Assembly (NCBI GenBank): GCA_024372625.1
Contig: CP099605.1
Span: 930,001-994,000 of the forward strand
Length of the DNA: 64,000 bases
Direction of reading: 5' to 3'
Origin: Comamonadaceae bacterium OTU4NAUVB1
GTDB taxonomy: Bacteria > Pseudomonadota > Gammaproteobacteria > Burkholderiales > Burkholderiaceae_C
In this document: in pieces, positions 49,719 through 59,931 of the stretch
Layout of the letters: each line of letters opens with the position of its first letter
Position numbering within the stretch: the first letter of the stretch is position 1
Made by a program: the position numbers and the translations under genes
The notes under the pieces: generated by a model
What the model was told of the DNA's origin: nothing
Seen by the model: the letters and a program-made list of their open reading frames with translations, nothing else
Databases searched by the model: none

Positions 49719-50354
49719 ATGAAAACCAACGTCCTGATCGCTGCCGTCGCGCTGGCACTGCCCTTCGCCACGTTCGCGCAGAGTGCGGCGAACGCCGACA
49801 AGGCCAAGCCCGCGCCCAAGAGCGCCGCCGCCAAGCCCGCGGCCAAGGCGACGCCCAAGGCCGCCGACAAGACCGCCGCCGCGAAGGCCGCCGTGAAGAA
49901 GCCCACCCGCCAGATCACCCGCCGCGCCGCCAAGGCGGTCGAGGAAGTCACGCCGGTCGACACCAACACCGACGTCGCGCTCAACGACGCCGACCTCGCC
50001 GTCGCCCAGCTCGTGCACACCGGCAAGATCCAGTGCGAACTCGGCGCCGACGTGACCGTCACCGCCGACGAGAAGAAGCCCGGCTTCTTCAGCGTCTCCA
50101 CCAAGGGCGCGAAGTACCGCATGCATCCGGTGGAGAGCCGCACCGGCGCGATCCGCCTGGAAGACCCTCGCGCGGGCGCCATGTGGCTGCAGATCGCCAA
50201 CAAGTCGATGCTCATGAACCAGAAGATGGGCCTGCGGCTGGCCGACGACTGCCAGGCCCCGCAGCAGCTCGCCTTCGCCGACGAGATGAAGAAGAACCCG
50301 CCCAAGAGCCTGTTCGAAGGCGCCGATCCGCAGCCCGGCGCCGCCGGCAAGTAA
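49719..50354 (+). CDS. exported Lys/Ala-rich hypothetical protein
   Basis: A 211-residue protein without an assigned family. A signal peptide ([21 protein letters not shown]) is followed by about 60 residues rich in Lys, Ala and Pro with repeated KPAAK/KAA units (histone H1-like). A compact C-terminal domain then has [40 protein letters not shown] and QMKNPPKSL-type helices. It lies 114 bases after the CitE-like gene and 29 before acnB. The basic tail could bind polyanions such as peptidoglycan, polyphosphate or DNA; the function is unknown. Confidence 0.75.
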
Positions 50355-50383
50355 GTCAGTTCCTTTCAGCCCTGGAGAAAAAG

Positions 50384-52978
50384 ATGTTGCAAGCCTACGT
50401 TGACCATGTCGCCGAGCGCGCCGCGCTCGGTATCCCGCCGCTTCCCCTGACGGCCAAGCAGACCTCCGAGATGATCGAGCTGCTCAAGACCGCGCAACCC
50501 GGTGCCGACGGCGAGTTCCTGCTCGACCTGCTGACCCACCGCGTGCCCGCGGGCGTCGACGATGCGGCCAAGGTCAAGGCCAGCTACCTCGCGGCCGTGG
50601 CGCACGGCACCGAGAAGAACCCGCTGCTCTCGCGCGAACGCGCCACCGAGCTGCTGGGCACCATGCTGGGCGGCTACAACATCGGACCGATGATCGACCT
50701 GCTCAAGGACGAGCAGGTCGGCGCGGTCGCCGCCGAAGGGCTGAAGAAGACGCTGCTGATGTTCGACCAGTTCCACGACGTCAAGGAACTGGCCGACGGC
50801 GGCAACGCCCACGCCATCGCGGTGATGCAGAGCTGGGCCGACGCCGAGTGGTTCACCGACCGTCCCGAGGTGCCGCAGCGCATCACCTTCACCGTCTTCA
50901 AGGTCCCGGGCGAGACCAACACCGACGACCTGTCGCCCGCGCCCGACGCCACCACGCGCCCGGACATCCCGATGCACGCGCTGGCCATGCTCAAGAACAA
51001 GCGCGACGGCGCCGCCTTCGAGCCCGAGGAGGACGGCAAGCGCGGCCCCATCAGGTTCATCCAGGACCTCGTGGCGCGCGGCCTGCCGGTGGCCTACGTC
51101 GGCGACGTGGTCGGCACCGGCTCCAGCCGCAAGTCGGCCACCAACTCGGTGCTCTGGTTCACCGGCGAGGACATCCCCTTCATCCCGAACAAGAAGTTCG
51201 GCGGCGTCTGCCTGGGCGCCAAGATCGCGCCGATCTTCTACAACACCATGGAAGACGCCGGCGCGCTGCCCATCGAGCTGGACGTGAGCCAGATGGAGAT
51301 GGGCGACACCATCGAGCTGCGCCCCTACGAGGGCAAGGCCCTGAAGGACGGCCAGGTCATCGCCGAGTTCCAGGTCAAGAGCGAGGTGCTGTTCGACGAA
51401 GTGCGCGCCGGTGGCCGCATTCCGCTGATCATCGGCCGTGGCCTCACGGGCAAGGCGCGCGAGGCGCTGGGCCTGCCGGCATCGACGCTGTTCCGCCTGC
51501 CGCAGGCCCCCGCGGACAGCGGCAAGGGCTTCTCGCTCGCGCAGAAGATGGTCGGCCGTGCCTGCGGCCTGCCCGAAGGCCAGGGCGTGCGCCCCGGCAC
51601 GTACTGCGAGCCGAAGATGACCTCGGTCGGTTCGCAGGACACCACCGGCCCGATGACGCGCGACGAGCTCAAGGACCTGGCCTGCCTGGGCTTCTCGGCG
51701 GACCTCGTCATGCAGTCGTTCTGCCACACGGCGGCCTACCCGAAGAAGGTCGACGTGAAGATGCACCACGAGCTGCCCGACTTCATGGCCACCCGCGGCG
51801 GCGTGTCGCTGCGCCCGGGCGACGGCGTGATCCACAGCTGGCTCAACCGCCTGCTCACGCCCGACACCGTCGGCACGGGCGGCGACAGCCACACGCGCTT
51901 CCCGATCGGCATCAGCTTCCCGGCCGGTTCCGGCCTGGTCGCCTTCGCGGCGGCCACCGGCGTGATGCCGCTGGACATGCCCGAATCGGTGCTGGTGCGC
52001 TTCAAGGGCACGATGCAGCCGGGCGTCACGCTGCGCGACCTGGTCAACGCCATCCCGCTCTACGCCATCAAGAGCGGCCTGCTGACGGTCGCCAAGCAGG
52101 GCAAGAAGAACATTTTCTCCGGCCGCATCCTGGAGATCGAGGGCCTGCCGGACCTGAAGGTCGAACAGGCCTTCGAACTGAGCGACGCGTCGGCCGAACG
52201 CTCGGCCGCCGGCTGCACCGTGCACCTGAACAAGGCGCCGATCATGGAATACATCAACAGCAACATCACCCTGATGCGCTGGATGATCGCCGAGGGCTAT
52301 GCCGACGCCCGCACACTGGCGCGCCGCATCGCCGCCCAGGAAGCCTGGCTGAAGGACCCGCAGCTGCTCAAGGGCGACGAGGACGCCGAGTACGCGGCCG
52401 TCATCGAGATCGACCTGGCCGACATCCATGAACCCATCGTGGCCTGCCCGAACGACCCGGACGACGTGAAGACGCTGTCCGACGTCGCCGGCGCCACCAT
52501 CGACGAGGTGTTCATCGGCTCGTGCATGACCAACATCGGCCACTTCCGCGCGGCTTCCAAGCTGCTCGAGGGCAAGCGCGACATCCCGGTCAAGCTGTGG
52601 ATCGCGCCGCCGACGAAGATGGACGCGCAGCAGCTGACCGAGGAAGGCCACTACGGCGTCTTCGGCAACGCCGGCGCGCGCACCGAGATGCCCGGCTGCT
52701 CGCTGTGCATGGGCAACCAGGCACAGGTGCGCGAGGGCGCGACCGTGATGTCGACGTCCACGCGCAACTTCCCCAACCGCCTGGGCAAGAACACCTTCGT
52801 CTACCTCGGCAGCGCCGAACTCGCCGCGATCTGCTCGCGCCTGGGCCGCATCCCGACGAAGCAGGAGTACATGGACGGTGTCGGCGTGCTGGACGCGTCC
52901 AGCGCGCAGATCTACCAGTACCTCAACTTCGACAAGATCGAGGACTACCAGTCGGTGGCCGACGGCGTCGCCGCCTGA
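50384..52978 (+). CDS. acnB: aconitate hydratase B
   Basis: An 864-residue bifunctional aconitase / 2-methylisocitrate dehydratase of the TCA cycle. The AcnB-type N-terminal HEAT-like domain ([23 protein letters not shown]) and swivel domain ([18 protein letters not shown]) precede the catalytic part, with cluster cysteines in [12 protein letters not shown] and [14 protein letters not shown]. The ATG at 50384 has CTGGAG seven bases upstream. A terminator follows the gene. Confidence 0.97.
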
Positions 52979-53017
52979 CGCGCGGATCGATGCGCACGGG
53001 GCCAGCGCCCCGATGAC

Positions 53018-53044
53018 GAGGCCCACTCCGGTGGGCCTTTTTCA
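53018..53044 (+). terminator. intrinsic terminator after acnB
   Basis: AGGCCCAC-TCCG-GTGGGCCT forms an eight-base GC-rich stem with a TCCG loop and is followed by TTTT. It separates acnB from the convergent glycosyltransferase gene. Confidence 0.9.
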
Positions 53045-53074
53045 TGGGCGCCGCGCCGCGACGGGCCGAGGCCG

Positions 53075-53785
53075 TCAGTCGATGGCCGGCTGCACCGTCG
53101 TCGCGACGGCGGTGGCCGCCAGCCCCGCGGCGATGACGGCCAGCAAGGTGTCGCCGAACCCGCCACGGGCACGCGCATCGGCGCGTGCGCTCGTCGTCAC
53201 GCGCGGCGCGGCGCTCCAGGCGATGCGCGCGCCGCTGGCCTGGAGCGCCTCGACCAGCGCCACGTCCTCGCTGCAGGCCAGCGGCTGGAAGCCGCCGGCG
53301 CGCTCGTACGCTTCGGCCGAGACGCCCAGGTTCGCGCCGTGGATGTGGCGGTGACCGTCCATCTCGTGATAGGTGACGGCGAAGTGGTCACGGATGAAGC
53401 CGGCCTGGTCGCCATGCGCGCTCCAGTCCGCCACGCCGATGCAGCCGCAGACCGCGTCGGCGTCCAGTTCGAGCTGGCGCACCAGCCAGTCGGGCGCGAC
53501 CCGCGTGTCGGCGTCGGTGAACGCCAGCCAGCGCGCGCCGCGCGCCAGTAGCGCCGACGCCCCGGCCGCCCGGGCCCGGCCGACGTTGCGCGCCGCGATC
53601 GACAGGGACGCCACGCCGTGCGTCCGCACGATGTCCGCGGTGGCGTCCGCGCAGCTGTCGAGCACCACCAGGAGTTCCACCGGCTCTCCGGCGAGGCCGG
53701 GATGGCGTGCCGCCAGCGCCAGCGCGGCGAGCGTGCCGCCGATGTGGTCGGCCTCGTCGTGCGCGGGAACGATCACGCCGATCAC
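53075..53785 (-). CDS. glycosyltransferase family 2 protein
   Basis: A 236-residue GT-A fold transferase. VIGVIVPAHDEADHIGGTLAALA is the N-terminal nucleotide-binding strand; the DxD-type motif is FTDADTRVAPDWL, and the acceptor/catalytic acidic pair is in ACSEDVALVEAL. The GTG at 53785 is chosen because it overlaps the upstream methyltransferase stop (GTGA); a longer start would extend into that gene. A weakly hydrophobic C-terminal stretch (LLAVIAAGLAATAVATTV) might contact the membrane. It is the last gene of a four-gene overlapped set; the sugar is unknown. Confidence 0.85.
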   Translation of the reverse strand: MIGVIVPAHDEADHIGGTLAALALAARHPGLAGEPVELLVVLDSCADATADIVRTHGVASLSIAARNVGRARAAGASALLARGARWLAFTDADTRVAPDWLVRQLELDADAVCGCIGVADWSAHGDQAGFIRDHFAVTYHEMDGHRHIHGANLGVSAEAYERAGGFQPLACSEDVALVEALQASGARIAWSAAPRVTTSARADARARGGFGDTLLAVIAAGLAATAVATTVQPAID

Positions 53786-54420
53786 CGGATGCCTTCGCGT
53801 TGCGCGACCGAGCGGGCGTCGCGGCACCAGACGTCGAGCACGAAGTCGTCCTCGACGTGATGCACGGTACGGGCCAGCCCCAGGTCGGCCAGGGCGGCGT
53901 GCACGGCATCGGTGGACAGTGCCCGGGCATCGAAGTCGGGCCGCCAGTGGCAGGCCGCCAGCACGCCGTCCTCGGCCAGCGCGTCGTGGCAGCGGGCCGC
54001 CAGCGACCGCATCGCCTCCGCATCGAGGAAATAGCCGAGTTCGCCCACGACGATGAGGTCGAAGGTGCCTTCGGGCCAGTCGCGCGGCAGCACGTGCGAG
54101 GCGATGCGCACGTTGGCGAGCGTCGCCGTGCGCGCGCGGGCCGACGCGAGCGCGCCCGGGCTGAAGTCGCTGGCGAGCAGGTCGTCGCAGCGCATGGCGA
54201 GTTCGGCGGTCGTCTCGCCGGCGCCGCAGCCCGGCTCGTAGGCGCGGGCGTAGCGCGGATGGGGCAGGGCGGCGAGCAGCGCGGCGCGCTTGCGTGCCTC
54301 GTACCAGCGCGTGCGCAGGCCGTAGGGATCGGGACTGTCGCCGTAGAGGCGCTCGAAGTAGGTCAGGCGGTCGGTGGTGCCGTTCCCGCCGTCGTTCCCC
54401 CCGTTGTCCATCGCGCTCAT
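53782..54420 (-). CDS. NodS-like SAM-dependent methyltransferase
   Basis: A 212-residue class I methyltransferase. RLYGDSPDPYGLRTRWYEARKRAALLAAL and AYEPGCGAGETTAELAM (SAM motif I) with VVGELGYFLDAEAM match the NodS family, whose founding member N-methylates the deacetylated amino sugar of Nod factors. The first 18 residues are Gly/Asn-rich and may be disordered. It overlaps the PIG-L deacetylase stop by four bases and the glycosyltransferase start by four bases. Its substrate is probably a free amine, judged by family and neighbours. Confidence 0.87.
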   Translation of the reverse strand: MSAMDNGGNDGGNGTTDRLTYFERLYGDSPDPYGLRTRWYEARKRAALLAALPHPRYARAYEPGCGAGETTAELAMRCDDLLASDFSPGALASARARTATLANVRIASHVLPRDWPEGTFDLIVVGELGYFLDAEAMRSLAARCHDALAEDGVLAACHWRPDFDARALSTDAVHAALADLGLARTVHHVEDDFVLDVWCRDARSVAQREGIR

Positions 54421-55214
54421 GCGAACACCACCTCGAACGGCCGCCGGGCCCGCTCGACCGTGGTGGGCCGCAGGATCGGTCCGGCGCCGGTCGACGGGTC
54501 GGGCAGCAACTGGCTGCGGAAGGCTTCGACGGCGTCGGCCTTGCGGCGCGCGATCGGAGCGTCGAGCGTCACGCGGTGCGCGCGCGACCAGGGCAGGCGT
54601 GCATCGCCCGCCGCCGCCCAGTGCCAGGCCCAGACCGGCACCTCCACGAGTCGCAGCGCCATGCACGCGGCCACCGCGGCGCAGGCCTGGCCGGTGGCCT
54701 CGTGGTCGGGATGGCCGTCGAGACGCCACGTGGTGAAGACGACGTCGCCCGGGCGCAGGAGGGCGGCGATGCGCTCGGCCAGCGTGCCGCGCAATCCCAT
54801 CAGGCCGCCGTCGGGCAGACCCAGGCGGCGCACTTCGCACCACGACAGGCCCAGCCGGGCGAGCGCCTGCTCGGTCTCCAGGGGACGCTCGCGGCCCAGC
54901 CGCTCGGGCGGCCACAGCGGCGACCCGTCGTGGCTGCCCGTGCCGTCGGTCGCGGCCACGACCAGCAGTTCGCGTCCCAAGGCGGCCAGGTGCCCGAAGA
55001 GGCCGCCGACCGACAGCACCTCGTCGTCCGGGTGCGGCGCCACCACCACCGCGCGGCAGCCCGGTGGCACCAGGGTGGCGGGCGCGATCTCGGGCAGCCG
55101 CCGCCGGGTCAGCCAGGGAAGCCAGTCGGCTTCCGGCGTGCCGGCGCCTTCGATGGCGCGGTCGTTGGCGGCCTCGTCCGCCGATGGCGGCTCGGCGGCG
55201 GGCGATGGGTTCAC
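54417..55214 (-). CDS. PIG-L/LmbE family deacetylase
   Basis: A 265-residue zinc hydrolase. The metal motif is VVVAPHPDDEVLSVGG (PHPDDE form), and the third ligand is in RLDGHPDHEATG. VAATDGTGSHDGSPLWPPERLGRERPLE and LGLPDGGL follow the LmbE pattern. PIG-L/MshB/BshB enzymes remove acetyl from GlcNAc conjugates. The GTG at 55214 overlaps the upstream acyl-CoA dehydrogenase stop (GTGA), and its stop overlaps the methyltransferase ATG. No signal peptide is seen, so it acts in the cytoplasm. Confidence 0.9.
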   Translation of the reverse strand: MNPSPAAEPPSADEAANDRAIEGAGTPEADWLPWLTRRRLPEIAPATLVPPGCRAVVVAPHPDDEVLSVGGLFGHLAALGRELLVVAATDGTGSHDGSPLWPPERLGRERPLETEQALARLGLSWCEVRRLGLPDGGLMGLRGTLAERIAALLRPGDVVFTTWRLDGHPDHEATGQACAAVAACMALRLVEVPVWAWHWAAAGDARLPWSRAHRVTLDAPIARRKADAVEAFRSQLLPDPSTGAGPILRPTTVERARRPFEVVFA

Positions 55215-56221
55215 AGGGTCCACGGGGAATCCTCGTCGATGACCAGACCGGCGCCGAGCGACGCCAGGTCGCGCTCGGCGTGGCTCTGGCGCAGGAAGAC
55301 CGGCAGGTCGGCCATCGCCCGCGCGAAGCGCGCATCGCGGCACAGCGGACCGGCGCCCAGCGCCCGGCCCGCGTGGTCGAGCACCCGGGTCGCCGCGTCC
55401 TCGACCGTCAGCCGCGCGCGCGACGCGGGACGCTGGGCATCGGCGCGCGGATGGGCATCGATCCACGCCGCCGTCTCGCGCAGCGTGGCGGCGGCCCCGG
55501 CCAGCGCGACATCCATGGCTCCCAGATGCGCGAGCCGGTGCGCGTCGGGTTTCGACCCCAGCCGGCGGCGTGTCATTTCGGCGATGCCCTGGGCACCGCC
55601 GTACCAGCAGGCGGCGATGCCGGCGCCCCCCTGCCAGAAGCCGGGACGCGCCACGTAGGCGCCGGGCCGGCCGACCGGGGTCGCCAAGGCGCCGTCGAAA
55701 CGCACGTCGACGCTGCCCGTGTCCGCCATGCCCACGGCGTGCCAGCCATCGGAGGTCACCGTGACGCCCGGCTGGTCGAGCGCGACGGCGGCCAGACAGG
55801 GTTCGCCCCGGTCGTTCCAGGCGCTGAGCAGCGCGTGCGTCGACATGGCGGCGCCCGAGCACCAAGCCTTGGTACCGTGGAGCCGGACGCCCCGGCCGTC
55901 CGGGTCGGGGCGGAGTTCGACACGCGCATCGGGCGGCTCCGCGCACCAGGTTCCCCAGCGGCTCGCGGCCGGTGGGGGCGGACCGTCGAGTTCGGCCAGG
56001 ATGGCCAGGGCGTCGGTGTGGCCCTCGTACAGCTTCACCAGCGCGAGATCCCGTGCGGCCACGGCGGCCAGTGCCCGCCAGCGTGCGAGCGTGCGGCCCG
56101 CGCCGGGCCGTGGCAGACGGTCCGTGTCCGCCCCGATCAGGGCCTGGAGCGTCGGCGTCGCCGATCCGGCGGCGAGCAGCGCGGCGAGCCGGACCAACAC
56201 GTCGTCATCGCGGGGCGACAC
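55211..56221 (-). CDS. acyl-CoA dehydrogenase family protein
   Basis: A 336-residue flavoprotein homologue, shorter than typical 380-residue acyl-CoA dehydrogenases. The middle beta domain is recognisable (RLHGTKAWCSGAAMSTHALLSA and DGWHAVGMADTGSVDVRFD), and a C-terminal helical bundle follows (QGIAEMTRRRLG...DAATRVLDHAGRALGAGPL). The N-terminal helical domain is short and Ala-rich, and I cannot place the usual catalytic Glu. It may oxidise or hydroxylate a non-standard substrate. It is the first gene of the overlapped four-gene set. Confidence 0.8.
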   Translation of the reverse strand: MSPRDDDVLVRLAALLAAGSATPTLQALIGADTDRLPRPGAGRTLARWRALAAVAARDLALVKLYEGHTDALAILAELDGPPPPAASRWGTWCAEPPDARVELRPDPDGRGVRLHGTKAWCSGAAMSTHALLSAWNDRGEPCLAAVALDQPGVTVTSDGWHAVGMADTGSVDVRFDGALATPVGRPGAYVARPGFWQGGAGIAACWYGGAQGIAEMTRRRLGSKPDAHRLAHLGAMDVALAGAAATLRETAAWIDAHPRADAQRPASRARLTVEDAATRVLDHAGRALGAGPLCRDARFARAMADLPVFLRQSHAERDLASLGAGLVIDEDSPWTL

Positions 56222-56236
56222 CGGGCGTCTTCCGGC

Positions 56237-56740
56237 TCAGAGATCGACCTTCTTGTGCTCGCCGAGGTTCTTCGGCACTTCGCCGGTCAGGGCGGCCTTG
56301 GCCATCTTCAGCAGCTGGACCATCTTGCTGTCGTCGACGTCCCAGTACTCGGCTTCCTCGATGTGCACCGCCAGCAGACCGGTGTTGGGATCGGTCGGGC
56401 CGTTGGGGAACCAGGCCTTGGCCATGGGATTGAAGAGTTCCTGCTTCTTGGCGAGGTCGTCGAGCATCGAGGCACGGCCGGCCACGGAGACATAGCTGTC
56501 GCTGTCGGTGTTCGCGTAGGCCACGTTCACGACGCCGTCTTCCGCCACGTGGCGAGCGATGTCGCCGTCGGCGGGCACGAAGAAGTACAGCGTGGCGTGC
56601 TCGTCGAGGTCCTTGTTCTGGGTGGTCAACGGGTGGCTGTGCAGCAGGCCGTCGTGGTGGCGGTGCGTGAGCATGCCGAAGCGGGTGTCCTTGATCAGCT
56701 CCCAGAGTTTCTGGTGGGTGTTGTCGTTCGAGTCGGCCAT
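56237..56740 (-). CDS. pyridoxamine 5'-phosphate oxidase-like FMN split-barrel protein (general stress protein 26 type)
   Basis: A 167-residue protein with KLWELIKDTRFGMLTHRHHDG, LYFFVPADGDIARHVAEDG, VNVAYANTDSDSYVSVAGRA and EEAEYWDVDDSKMVQLLKMAKA, the pattern of the FMN-binding general stress protein 26 family. It lacks the conserved PNP oxidase C-terminus. It lies 15 bases before the acyl-CoA dehydrogenase start on the same strand, so it may share a transcript with the four genes downstream. Binding of a flavin is inferred. Confidence 0.85.
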   Translation of the reverse strand: MADSNDNTHQKLWELIKDTRFGMLTHRHHDGLLHSHPLTTQNKDLDEHATLYFFVPADGDIARHVAEDGVVNVAYANTDSDSYVSVAGRASMLDDLAKKQELFNPMAKAWFPNGPTDPNTGLLAVHIEEAEYWDVDDSKMVQLLKMAKAALTGEVPKNLGEHKKVDL

Positions 56741-57036
56741 CTGGAAGTTCCCGTTGTGTGGTTGGTGACCGGAGCACCCTACTGGCGGCGGGCGCCCCGC
56801 ACCGGCCTTCCCGTGGCTGATGATCGTGTCGTCCTGAACCGACGAAAGTCCTGGCCCACCAGGCTGTCGCGGTCGCCGACGATCGAGGCGACTCCGTCCT
56901 ACGCGCGCTGGTCGGCGGTCCGGGTGACGGTCGCGGCATCGGGCTGTTAACGTCCGATGTCGATGTCCGCGGGACCGGATCCATCCCCGTGCCGATGTCG
57001 CCCCCCACGTTCGCAGCCATTCCCAAGGAGCCCCTC
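56741..57036. other. 296-bp divergent intergenic region between the stress protein gene and acnA
   Basis: No credible gene or strong promoter is visible. It should hold both divergent promoters. The acnA ribosome binding site (AAGGAG) closes it. Short plus-strand open frames here are antisense or lack initiation signals. Confidence 0.6.

Positions 57037-59931
<2,895 letters not shown>

Follow-up and report, generated by a model that had tools for sequence, protein, structure and literature searches.

A conserved cluster of a flavoprotein, a PIG-L deacetylase, a NodS-like methyltransferase and a GT2 glycosyltransferase that may build a stress-linked amino-sugar conjugate

Introduction

What do an acyl-CoA dehydrogenase (ACAD) homologue, a PIG-L deacetylase, a NodS-like methyltransferase and a GT2 glycosyltransferase make when they are encoded in a row by overlapping genes? 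The question is raised by a locus of Comamonadaceae bacterium OTU4NAUVB1 (GCA_024372625.1), which lies on contig CP099605.1 in the stretch of 64,000 nucleotides at positions 930,001-994,000 of the forward strand. This whole stretch is called the window here and all coordinates refer to it. The genes follow each other in the order given above on the minus strand at 56221-53075.

The answer that we favour, to which we give slightly less than an even chance, is that one pathway transfers a sugar, removes its N-acetyl group, methylates the nitrogen and carries out a flavin-dependent oxidation, which leads to a stress-linked N-methyl amino-sugar conjugate. Computation shows the four families, their conserved clustering, the PIG-L/methyltransferase fusions, a cluster in which the deacetylase is of another family, and the stress neighbourhood.

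Results

Organization of the cluster

The four families that had been assigned by the original prediction were borne out by Pfam and NCBIfam matches. The ACAD-fold flavoprotein (55211..56221, minus strand, 336 aa) starts with GTG and is followed by the PIG-L (LmbE) family de-N-acetylase (54417..55214, minus strand, 265 aa), which also starts with GTG and has intact HPDDE and HPDH motifs. The NodS-like class I S-adenosylmethionine (SAM) methyltransferase (53782..54420, minus strand, 212 aa) starts with ATG. The GT2 glycosyltransferase of the GT-A fold (53075..53785, minus strand, 236 aa, GTG start) keeps its DAD and ED motifs; a longer open reading frame (ORF) up to 53827 is the same frame extended upstream. 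Third-position GC is 89-93% across all four genes.

The three predicted 4-bp junctions proved exact at every site. On the minus strand, the ACAD stop and the PIG-L start share GTGA (55211..55214), the PIG-L stop and the methyltransferase start share ATGA (54417..54420) and the methyltransferase stop and the GT2 start again share GTGA (53782..53785).

Conservation of the cluster

Two samples were searched for the cluster. The first holds the best 80 of 511 relatives from a public genome scan with the window PIG-L, each searched by tblastn up to 6 kb on either side, and has a bias towards Variovorax, Caballeronia and Pseudomonas. The ACAD homologue and the methyltransferase were each found in 74 of these 80 loci and GT2 in 58 (55 in a later count that lost some hits), which makes GT2 the least faithful member of the cluster. 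The second, less biased sample consists of 200 Pseudomonadota genomes, the own genome included, searched with an ACAD profile at E values up to 1e-30; few candidates per genome were fully scored, so that misses are possible. The ACAD homologue is present in 13 of the 200 genomes, in all 13 with the methyltransferase less than 1 kb away (26 to 937 bp), and PIG-L sits between the two in ten of them. A methyltransferase match was obtained in seven of the 187 genomes without ACAD, six of these matches being part of open frames 880 to 1131 codons long.

The overlaps are conserved as well. Among closely spaced gene pairs on one strand, taken from 96 loci, the 4-bp overlap was found at 56 of 85 ACAD/PIG-L, 61 of 85 PIG-L/methyltransferase and 45 of 53 methyltransferase/GT2 junctions. 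The four-gene cluster is more than chance, since its gene order is seen again in other genomes, often together with the 4-bp overlaps.

The ACAD, PIG-L and methyltransferase genes also occur in this order on annotated plasmids or secondary replicons of Acinetobacter, Pandoraea, Kitasatospora, Sphingomonas, Novosphingobium, Roseomonas, Sulfitobacter, Komagataeibacter, Roseivivax, Bradyrhizobium and Comamonas. Of 39 plasmid records in which ACAD was matched, 19 are from Acinetobacter. In Legionella lytica the order is PIG-L, methyltransferase, GT2 and ACAD. Outside Pseudomonadota, relatives of the cluster were found in Deinococcota, Actinomycetota and Cyanobacteriota, among them the three genes in Nostoc (by reading of ORFs) and in Deinococcus, where two of the three records opened have insertions. 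The distribution across sampled genomes, plasmids and phyla shows an old, mobile unit, in which ACAD and the methyltransferase are the most constant pair, the deacetylase is nearly always present in the genome and the glycosyltransferase is more variable.

As to the Deinococcus insertions, PIG-L and the methyltransferase are separated by an opposite-strand helicase gene in D. radiodurans, and ACAD and PIG-L by a TnpB gene in D. wulumuqiensis.

The four families are thus kept as neighbours across genomes, above all ACAD and the methyltransferase, and because they are kept together across genera and phyla the single-pathway reading stands up to the comparison of neighbourhoods. It had also been stated that no cluster of this make-up with an established product was known. 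No description of the four-gene set was recognised in the openly licensed PubMed Central literature, which does not imply its absence elsewhere. As a correction to the original prediction, the cluster is common rather than singular.

Fusions and alternative deacetylases

A joined query of the window PIG-L and methyltransferase scored 1178 proteins at E values up to 0.001. Of the best 120 of these, 30 are PIG-L proteins on their own and 90, each of 420 residues or more, are natural fusions of PIG-L and a NodS-type methyltransferase; since the joined query favours fusions, their number is meaningful and their share is not. The named fusion genera include Cryobacterium, Kineococcus, Microbacterium and Nakamurella, which we take to be Actinomycetota. 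When plasmids were searched with one fusion, none of the matches listed (30 of 157 records) was annotated as a fused gene.

On a plasmid of Rubrobacter indicoceani (L167:3948-8599) a CE4 deacetylase gene lies 44 bp before ACAD, followed by the genes of a methyltransferase, an FAD-dependent oxidoreductase and a GT2, and no PIG-L match was found in the 12.5 kb fetched of this region. CE4 is the superfamily of NodB. This one case suggests, short of proof, that the deacetylase of the cluster can come from either of two unrelated families.

GT2, NodS-type methyltransferase and CE4 domains are moreover joined in trifunctional proteins, as seen in all three that were opened (L161:4393-7473, L159:7379-10384 and L163:4486-7398). 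These proteins, named trifunctional glycosyltransferase/SAM methyltransferase/polysaccharide deacetylase proteins at NCBI, share with the cluster a GT2, a methyltransferase matching the NodS model and a deacetylase. They differ in that the deacetylase is of the CE4 kind and that the stretches fetched from Sulfitobacter and Mesorhizobium show no annotated ACAD gene. They are a possible Nod-like pathway on one polypeptide.

Stress genes around the cluster

A link of the cluster to trehalose and other stress genes had been left out of the original prediction and is added here. In Comamonas endophytica the cluster is embedded in an operon otsA-ACAD-PIGL-MT-GT2-otsB (MT, methyltransferase), in which otsA and ACAD overlap by 4 bp. 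The same overlap joins glgX and ACAD in locus L070, and in six further loci glgX and ACAD overlap or are separated by at most 12 bp, depending on the start chosen. Trehalose genes adjoin the cluster in L113, L119, L128, L144 and L146, and the one Acinetobacter plasmid opened carries the cluster with catalase and otsBA nearby. Genes of a stress list are found in 35 of the 80 PIG-L-selected loci, a trehalose or glucan gene in 17 and LigD or Ku in 17, counts that have to be read with the list having been drawn up post hoc, after the loci had been inspected, and with related genomes not being independent. According to a P. aeruginosa study (PMC8084333), trehalose and alpha-glucan operons of pseudomonads rise under osmotic or water stress.

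In the 200 Pseudomonadota genomes, OtsA is present in 12 of the 13 ACAD carriers vs 41 of the 187 others, TreY in ten vs 17 and Ku in seven vs 28, all uncorrected for relatedness and genome size. The window genome has all three. Trehalose was considered as the acceptor of the pathway; its genes adjoin some loci and not the window cluster.

Besides the way in which the stress list was made, several observations speak against a single stress-linked pathway. Genome G285 carries ACAD and the methyltransferase and neither OtsA nor TreY, and about 463 kb separate OtsA from the cluster in the window genome. In six of the 80 loci PIG-L occurs without ACAD, methyltransferase or GT2, and genomes G277 and G240 have strong PIG-L matches and no matches for ACAD or the methyltransferase. 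PIG-L is away from ACAD and the methyltransferase in three of the 13 ACAD-carrying genomes (on another contig, about 280 kb off and about 12 kb off), and in the 14.8 kb fetched from Methylobacterium FF17 (L120) ACAD is matched, whereas PIG-L and the methyltransferase are not. No GT2 was found in 22 of the 80 loci; within 6 kb on each side tblastn detected none in the Caballeronia-type loci L040-L042, L045-L047, L053-L055, L057 and L058.

The separated PIG-L genes and the solitary ACAD of L120, together with the stress genes of the post hoc list, would also fit genes that adjoin because all of them are stress-induced, with different substrates. We consider such mere co-regulation very unlikely, as it is opposed by the PIG-L/methyltransferase fusions, the frequent 4-bp overlaps and the joint presence of the genes across phyla with differing surroundings. 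The cluster most likely makes one compound.

The deacetylase and the methyltransferase

The window deacetylase matches Pfam PIG-L (PF02585) at 4e-25, with 89.2 bits vs a cut-off of 28.2. It matches PIG-L only and not CE4, in agreement with the earlier statement that its family is not that of NodB. Residues H61, D64, D170 and H171 are present in 44 of 44 aligned rows and D63 in 43; the residues of the HPDD...HPDH motif have a metal role in PIG-L/LmbE deacetylases. The closest structures are diacetylchitobiose deacetylases, and the relatives include BshB (6p2t) and MshB (1q74).

Some PIG-L copies in Pseudomonas carry HPGDE instead of HPDDE (L084:8139-8930, also L075, L082, L101, L104, L107, L108 and L157), so that a conserved aspartate is lost. 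This is a second copy after GT2 in L075, L082, L084, L101 and L108. L107 and L157 have it next to glgX/treY genes as the PIG-L found there, with ACAD and methyltransferase missing. In the Caballeronia or Burkholderia loci L052, L062 and L067, PIG-L stands alone at the same place, and the HPDDE motif is missing in L062 and L067.

The methyltransferase passes the cut-off of Pfam NodS (9e-10, 39.2 bits vs 24) and fails that of the NodS equivalog NF041650 of NCBIfam (49.4 bits vs 300), and is therefore by these models a relative of NodS, not NodS itself; general methyltransferase models match too. The nearest named protein of solved structure to its profile is NodS 3ofj (2.3e-30), and the identity to R. 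etli NodS is 33% over 129 aa. In a methyltransferase tree, which is unrooted, has no outgroup and only three NodS rows, and shows long branches for c_L118 and NodS, NodS adjoins the trifunctional GT2/methyltransferase/CE4 proteins (support 81/85), and both lie inside a group with the cluster enzymes of Deinococcus, Nostoc and Legionella and most of the alphaproteobacterial ones (99/95). A NodS-like label does not prove N-methylation, which counts against our reading: a further study (PMC8730385) reports O-methyltransferase activity for MMAR_2193, a protein with that label.

The flavoprotein

The fold of the ACAD homologue spans the whole chain of the predicted model (pLDDT 92.8), its Pfam Acyl-CoA_dh_M score of 33.3 bits is exactly the cut-off, and the closest named relatives are from Variovorax. 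The term acyl-CoA dehydrogenase homologue of the original prediction is thus right for the fold; the identity as a dehydrogenase became doubtful. In the profile search DszC/TdsC and MsuC came out on top, and by Foldseek E values DszC, TdsC and the amino-sugar N-oxygenases KijD3, DnmZ and ORF36 lead. The best NCBIfam match is SfnB, far under its cut-off. The motif WCSGA, invariant in 45 of 45 rows, aligns to the FCSG of DszC/TdsC. At the position of the catalytic glutamate of short- and medium-chain acyl-CoA dehydrogenases (SCAD/MCAD), as we presume it from the motif, the window protein has S313 (serine in 43 of 45 rows), a position reached by ungapped extension as the 3nf4 alignment ends a few residues short. 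The nearby E316 is replaced by A or Q in five of 45 rows.

Structural comparison gave a different picture, in which oxygenases do not stand out. Dehydrogenases match or surpass DszC by Foldseek TM-score (0.80 for 2dvl vs 0.71-0.79), they are close to monooxygenases in VIA-align (Z 30-32), the C-terminal part alone matches one solved structure only, the dehydrogenase 3nf4, and KijD3, DnmZ and ORF36 are placed beneath several dehydrogenases in the profile search. Identity to the ACAD-fold flavin oxygenases (DszC/TdsC, MsuC, KijD3, ORF36, DnmZ) is about 20%, and although they are on top by Foldseek E value, neither TM-score nor VIA-align sets the dehydrogenases apart. On the ranking by profile and Foldseek E value, and with TM-scores, VIA-align and the C-terminal match opposing it, we lowered the role of an acyl-CoA dehydrogenase; the flavin enzyme may well not be such a dehydrogenase and is possibly a DszC- or nitrososynthase-like oxygenase or oxidase.

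A true dehydrogenase would suit a lipid pathway, in which an acyl chain bound to coenzyme A or acyl carrier protein is desaturated or oxidised by the ACAD homologue and the other three enzymes build and trim the sugar of an envelope glycolipid. The complete predicted fold, the Pfam middle domain at its cut-off and the structural comparisons just named are consistent with it. We judge it unlikely in view of the leading oxygenases in both rankings, of S313 and the variable E316, and of the annotated neighbour families, among which no acyltransferase or carrier gene was recognised, many neighbour ORFs being unannotated.

The Deinococcus ACAD homologues (L115:4794-7043, L121:6618-8957 and L125) are about 750-790 residues long; the first 400 residues of that in L115 have no Pfam match and look glycoside hydrolase-like by eye.

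The glycosyltransferase

The window GT2 matches Pfam Glycos_transf_2 at 2.6e-11, and D91, D93, E173 and D174 are invariant in 31 rows. The beta- and gammaproteobacterial loci opened have mostly one small GT2, whose predicted model is a GT-A of the soluble type and singles out no donor or acceptor. The single small, soluble-type GT2 argues against a surface glycan, that is a polysaccharide or lipopolysaccharide decorated with N-methylglucosamine, which we regard as distinctly unlikely even though the Novosphingobium locus adds a GT4 and further glycosyltransferase genes, PIG-L of one genome is accompanied by GT4, GT2 and GT61 genes, and a Sulfitobacter trifunctional GT2/methyltransferase/CE4 protein lies near polysaccharide genes. 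An MFS (major facilitator superfamily) transporter gene follows the cluster in L113.

Comparison with known pathways

The cluster works like an amino-sugar pathway of the Nod factor or mycothiol kind and is a member of neither. With the Nod factor pathway it shares a GT2, a de-N-acetylase and a NodS-family methyltransferase, and R. etli has nodB-nodC-nodS in a row. It differs in having PIG-L instead of the CE4 protein NodB, a small GT2 of 236 aa and an added flavoprotein, and the loci opened have stress and not nodulation neighbours. No model of NodC, the membrane chitooligosaccharide synthase, was among the NCBIfam matches of the GT2, which has a GT-A model. The Nod-like logic of the original prediction gained support from the match to NodS 3ofj, the PIG-L/methyltransferase fusions, the Rubrobacter CE4 and the trifunctional proteins, whereas the amino-sugar product is plausible only.

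In mycothiol and bacillithiol synthesis PIG-L deacetylation of an N-acetylglucosamine (GlcNAc) conjugate, the MshB/BshB step, is equally central. These pathways go on to add cysteine, while the cluster has GT2, methylation and oxidation instead. BshC gave no match in the window genome (three of 14 control genomes match), and the best MshC match there reached 289 bits, under the 485-bit cut-off, in a search that matches 14 of 14 controls, one of them over the cut-off. Because BshC is unmatched and MshC is below the cut-off, we lowered the probability of both pathways. A low-molecular-weight thiol or redox cofactor made in this style by glycosyltransferase, PIG-L and tailoring enzymes is the least probable reading: BshB and MshB are among the PIG-L relatives and several loci have catalase neighbours, but no cysteine-adding enzyme was found in the window genome beyond the sub-cut-off MshC match and the nearest PIG-L structures are diacetylchitobiose deacetylases.

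Neighbouring genes in the window

Upstream of the cluster, a pyridoxamine-phosphate-oxidase-like gene (56237..56740, minus strand) stops 15 bp short of the ACAD start. It is present in just four of the 80 PIG-L-selected loci and is not a conserved cluster member; judged by spacing, it may be the first gene of the cluster transcript in this lineage. A consensus scan of 52900-57050 revealed no sigma-70-like promoter or terminator. On its 3' side GT2 is convergent with an aconitase-like gene. Two such genes, identified by eye at 50033-52978 and 56989-59931, bracket the cluster and the oxidase-like neighbour, and ORFs related to them also bracket the cluster in L033, L034, L038 and L043.

Discussion

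For the stress-linked amino-sugar conjugate that we favour, we infer substrate, order of steps, oxidation chemistry, acceptor, product and protective role as follows. An acceptor inside the cell would receive an N-acetylated sugar, in all likelihood GlcNAc, from GT2, PIG-L would strip the acetyl group and the NodS-like enzyme would methylate the freed amine. De-N-acetylation followed by this methylation is the best-supported chemistry. The ACAD-fold flavoprotein would then oxidise the product, perhaps at nitrogen. The resulting N-methyl amino-sugar conjugate would be produced, often together with trehalose, as part of the response to stress, stationary phase or desiccation.

A bolder proposal, which we hold to be unlikely, is a widespread undescribed stress metabolite in which an amino sugar is both N-methylated and N-oxygenated and which may have trehalose or a similar glucoside as its other part. 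It would be made by one cassette spread over at least four phyla and plasmids, with a methyltransferase from the stock that gave symbiotic NodS. A four-enzyme pathway encoded close to genes for trehalose, DNA repair and catalase, in hosts that include soil, plant-associated, radiation-resistant and clinical bacteria, would hint at a stress compound so far missed by metabolomics. A group of proteins annotated as PIG-L, NodS and acyl-CoA dehydrogenase would be given a role, and the cluster enzymes may show the origin of the Nod factor methyltransferase.

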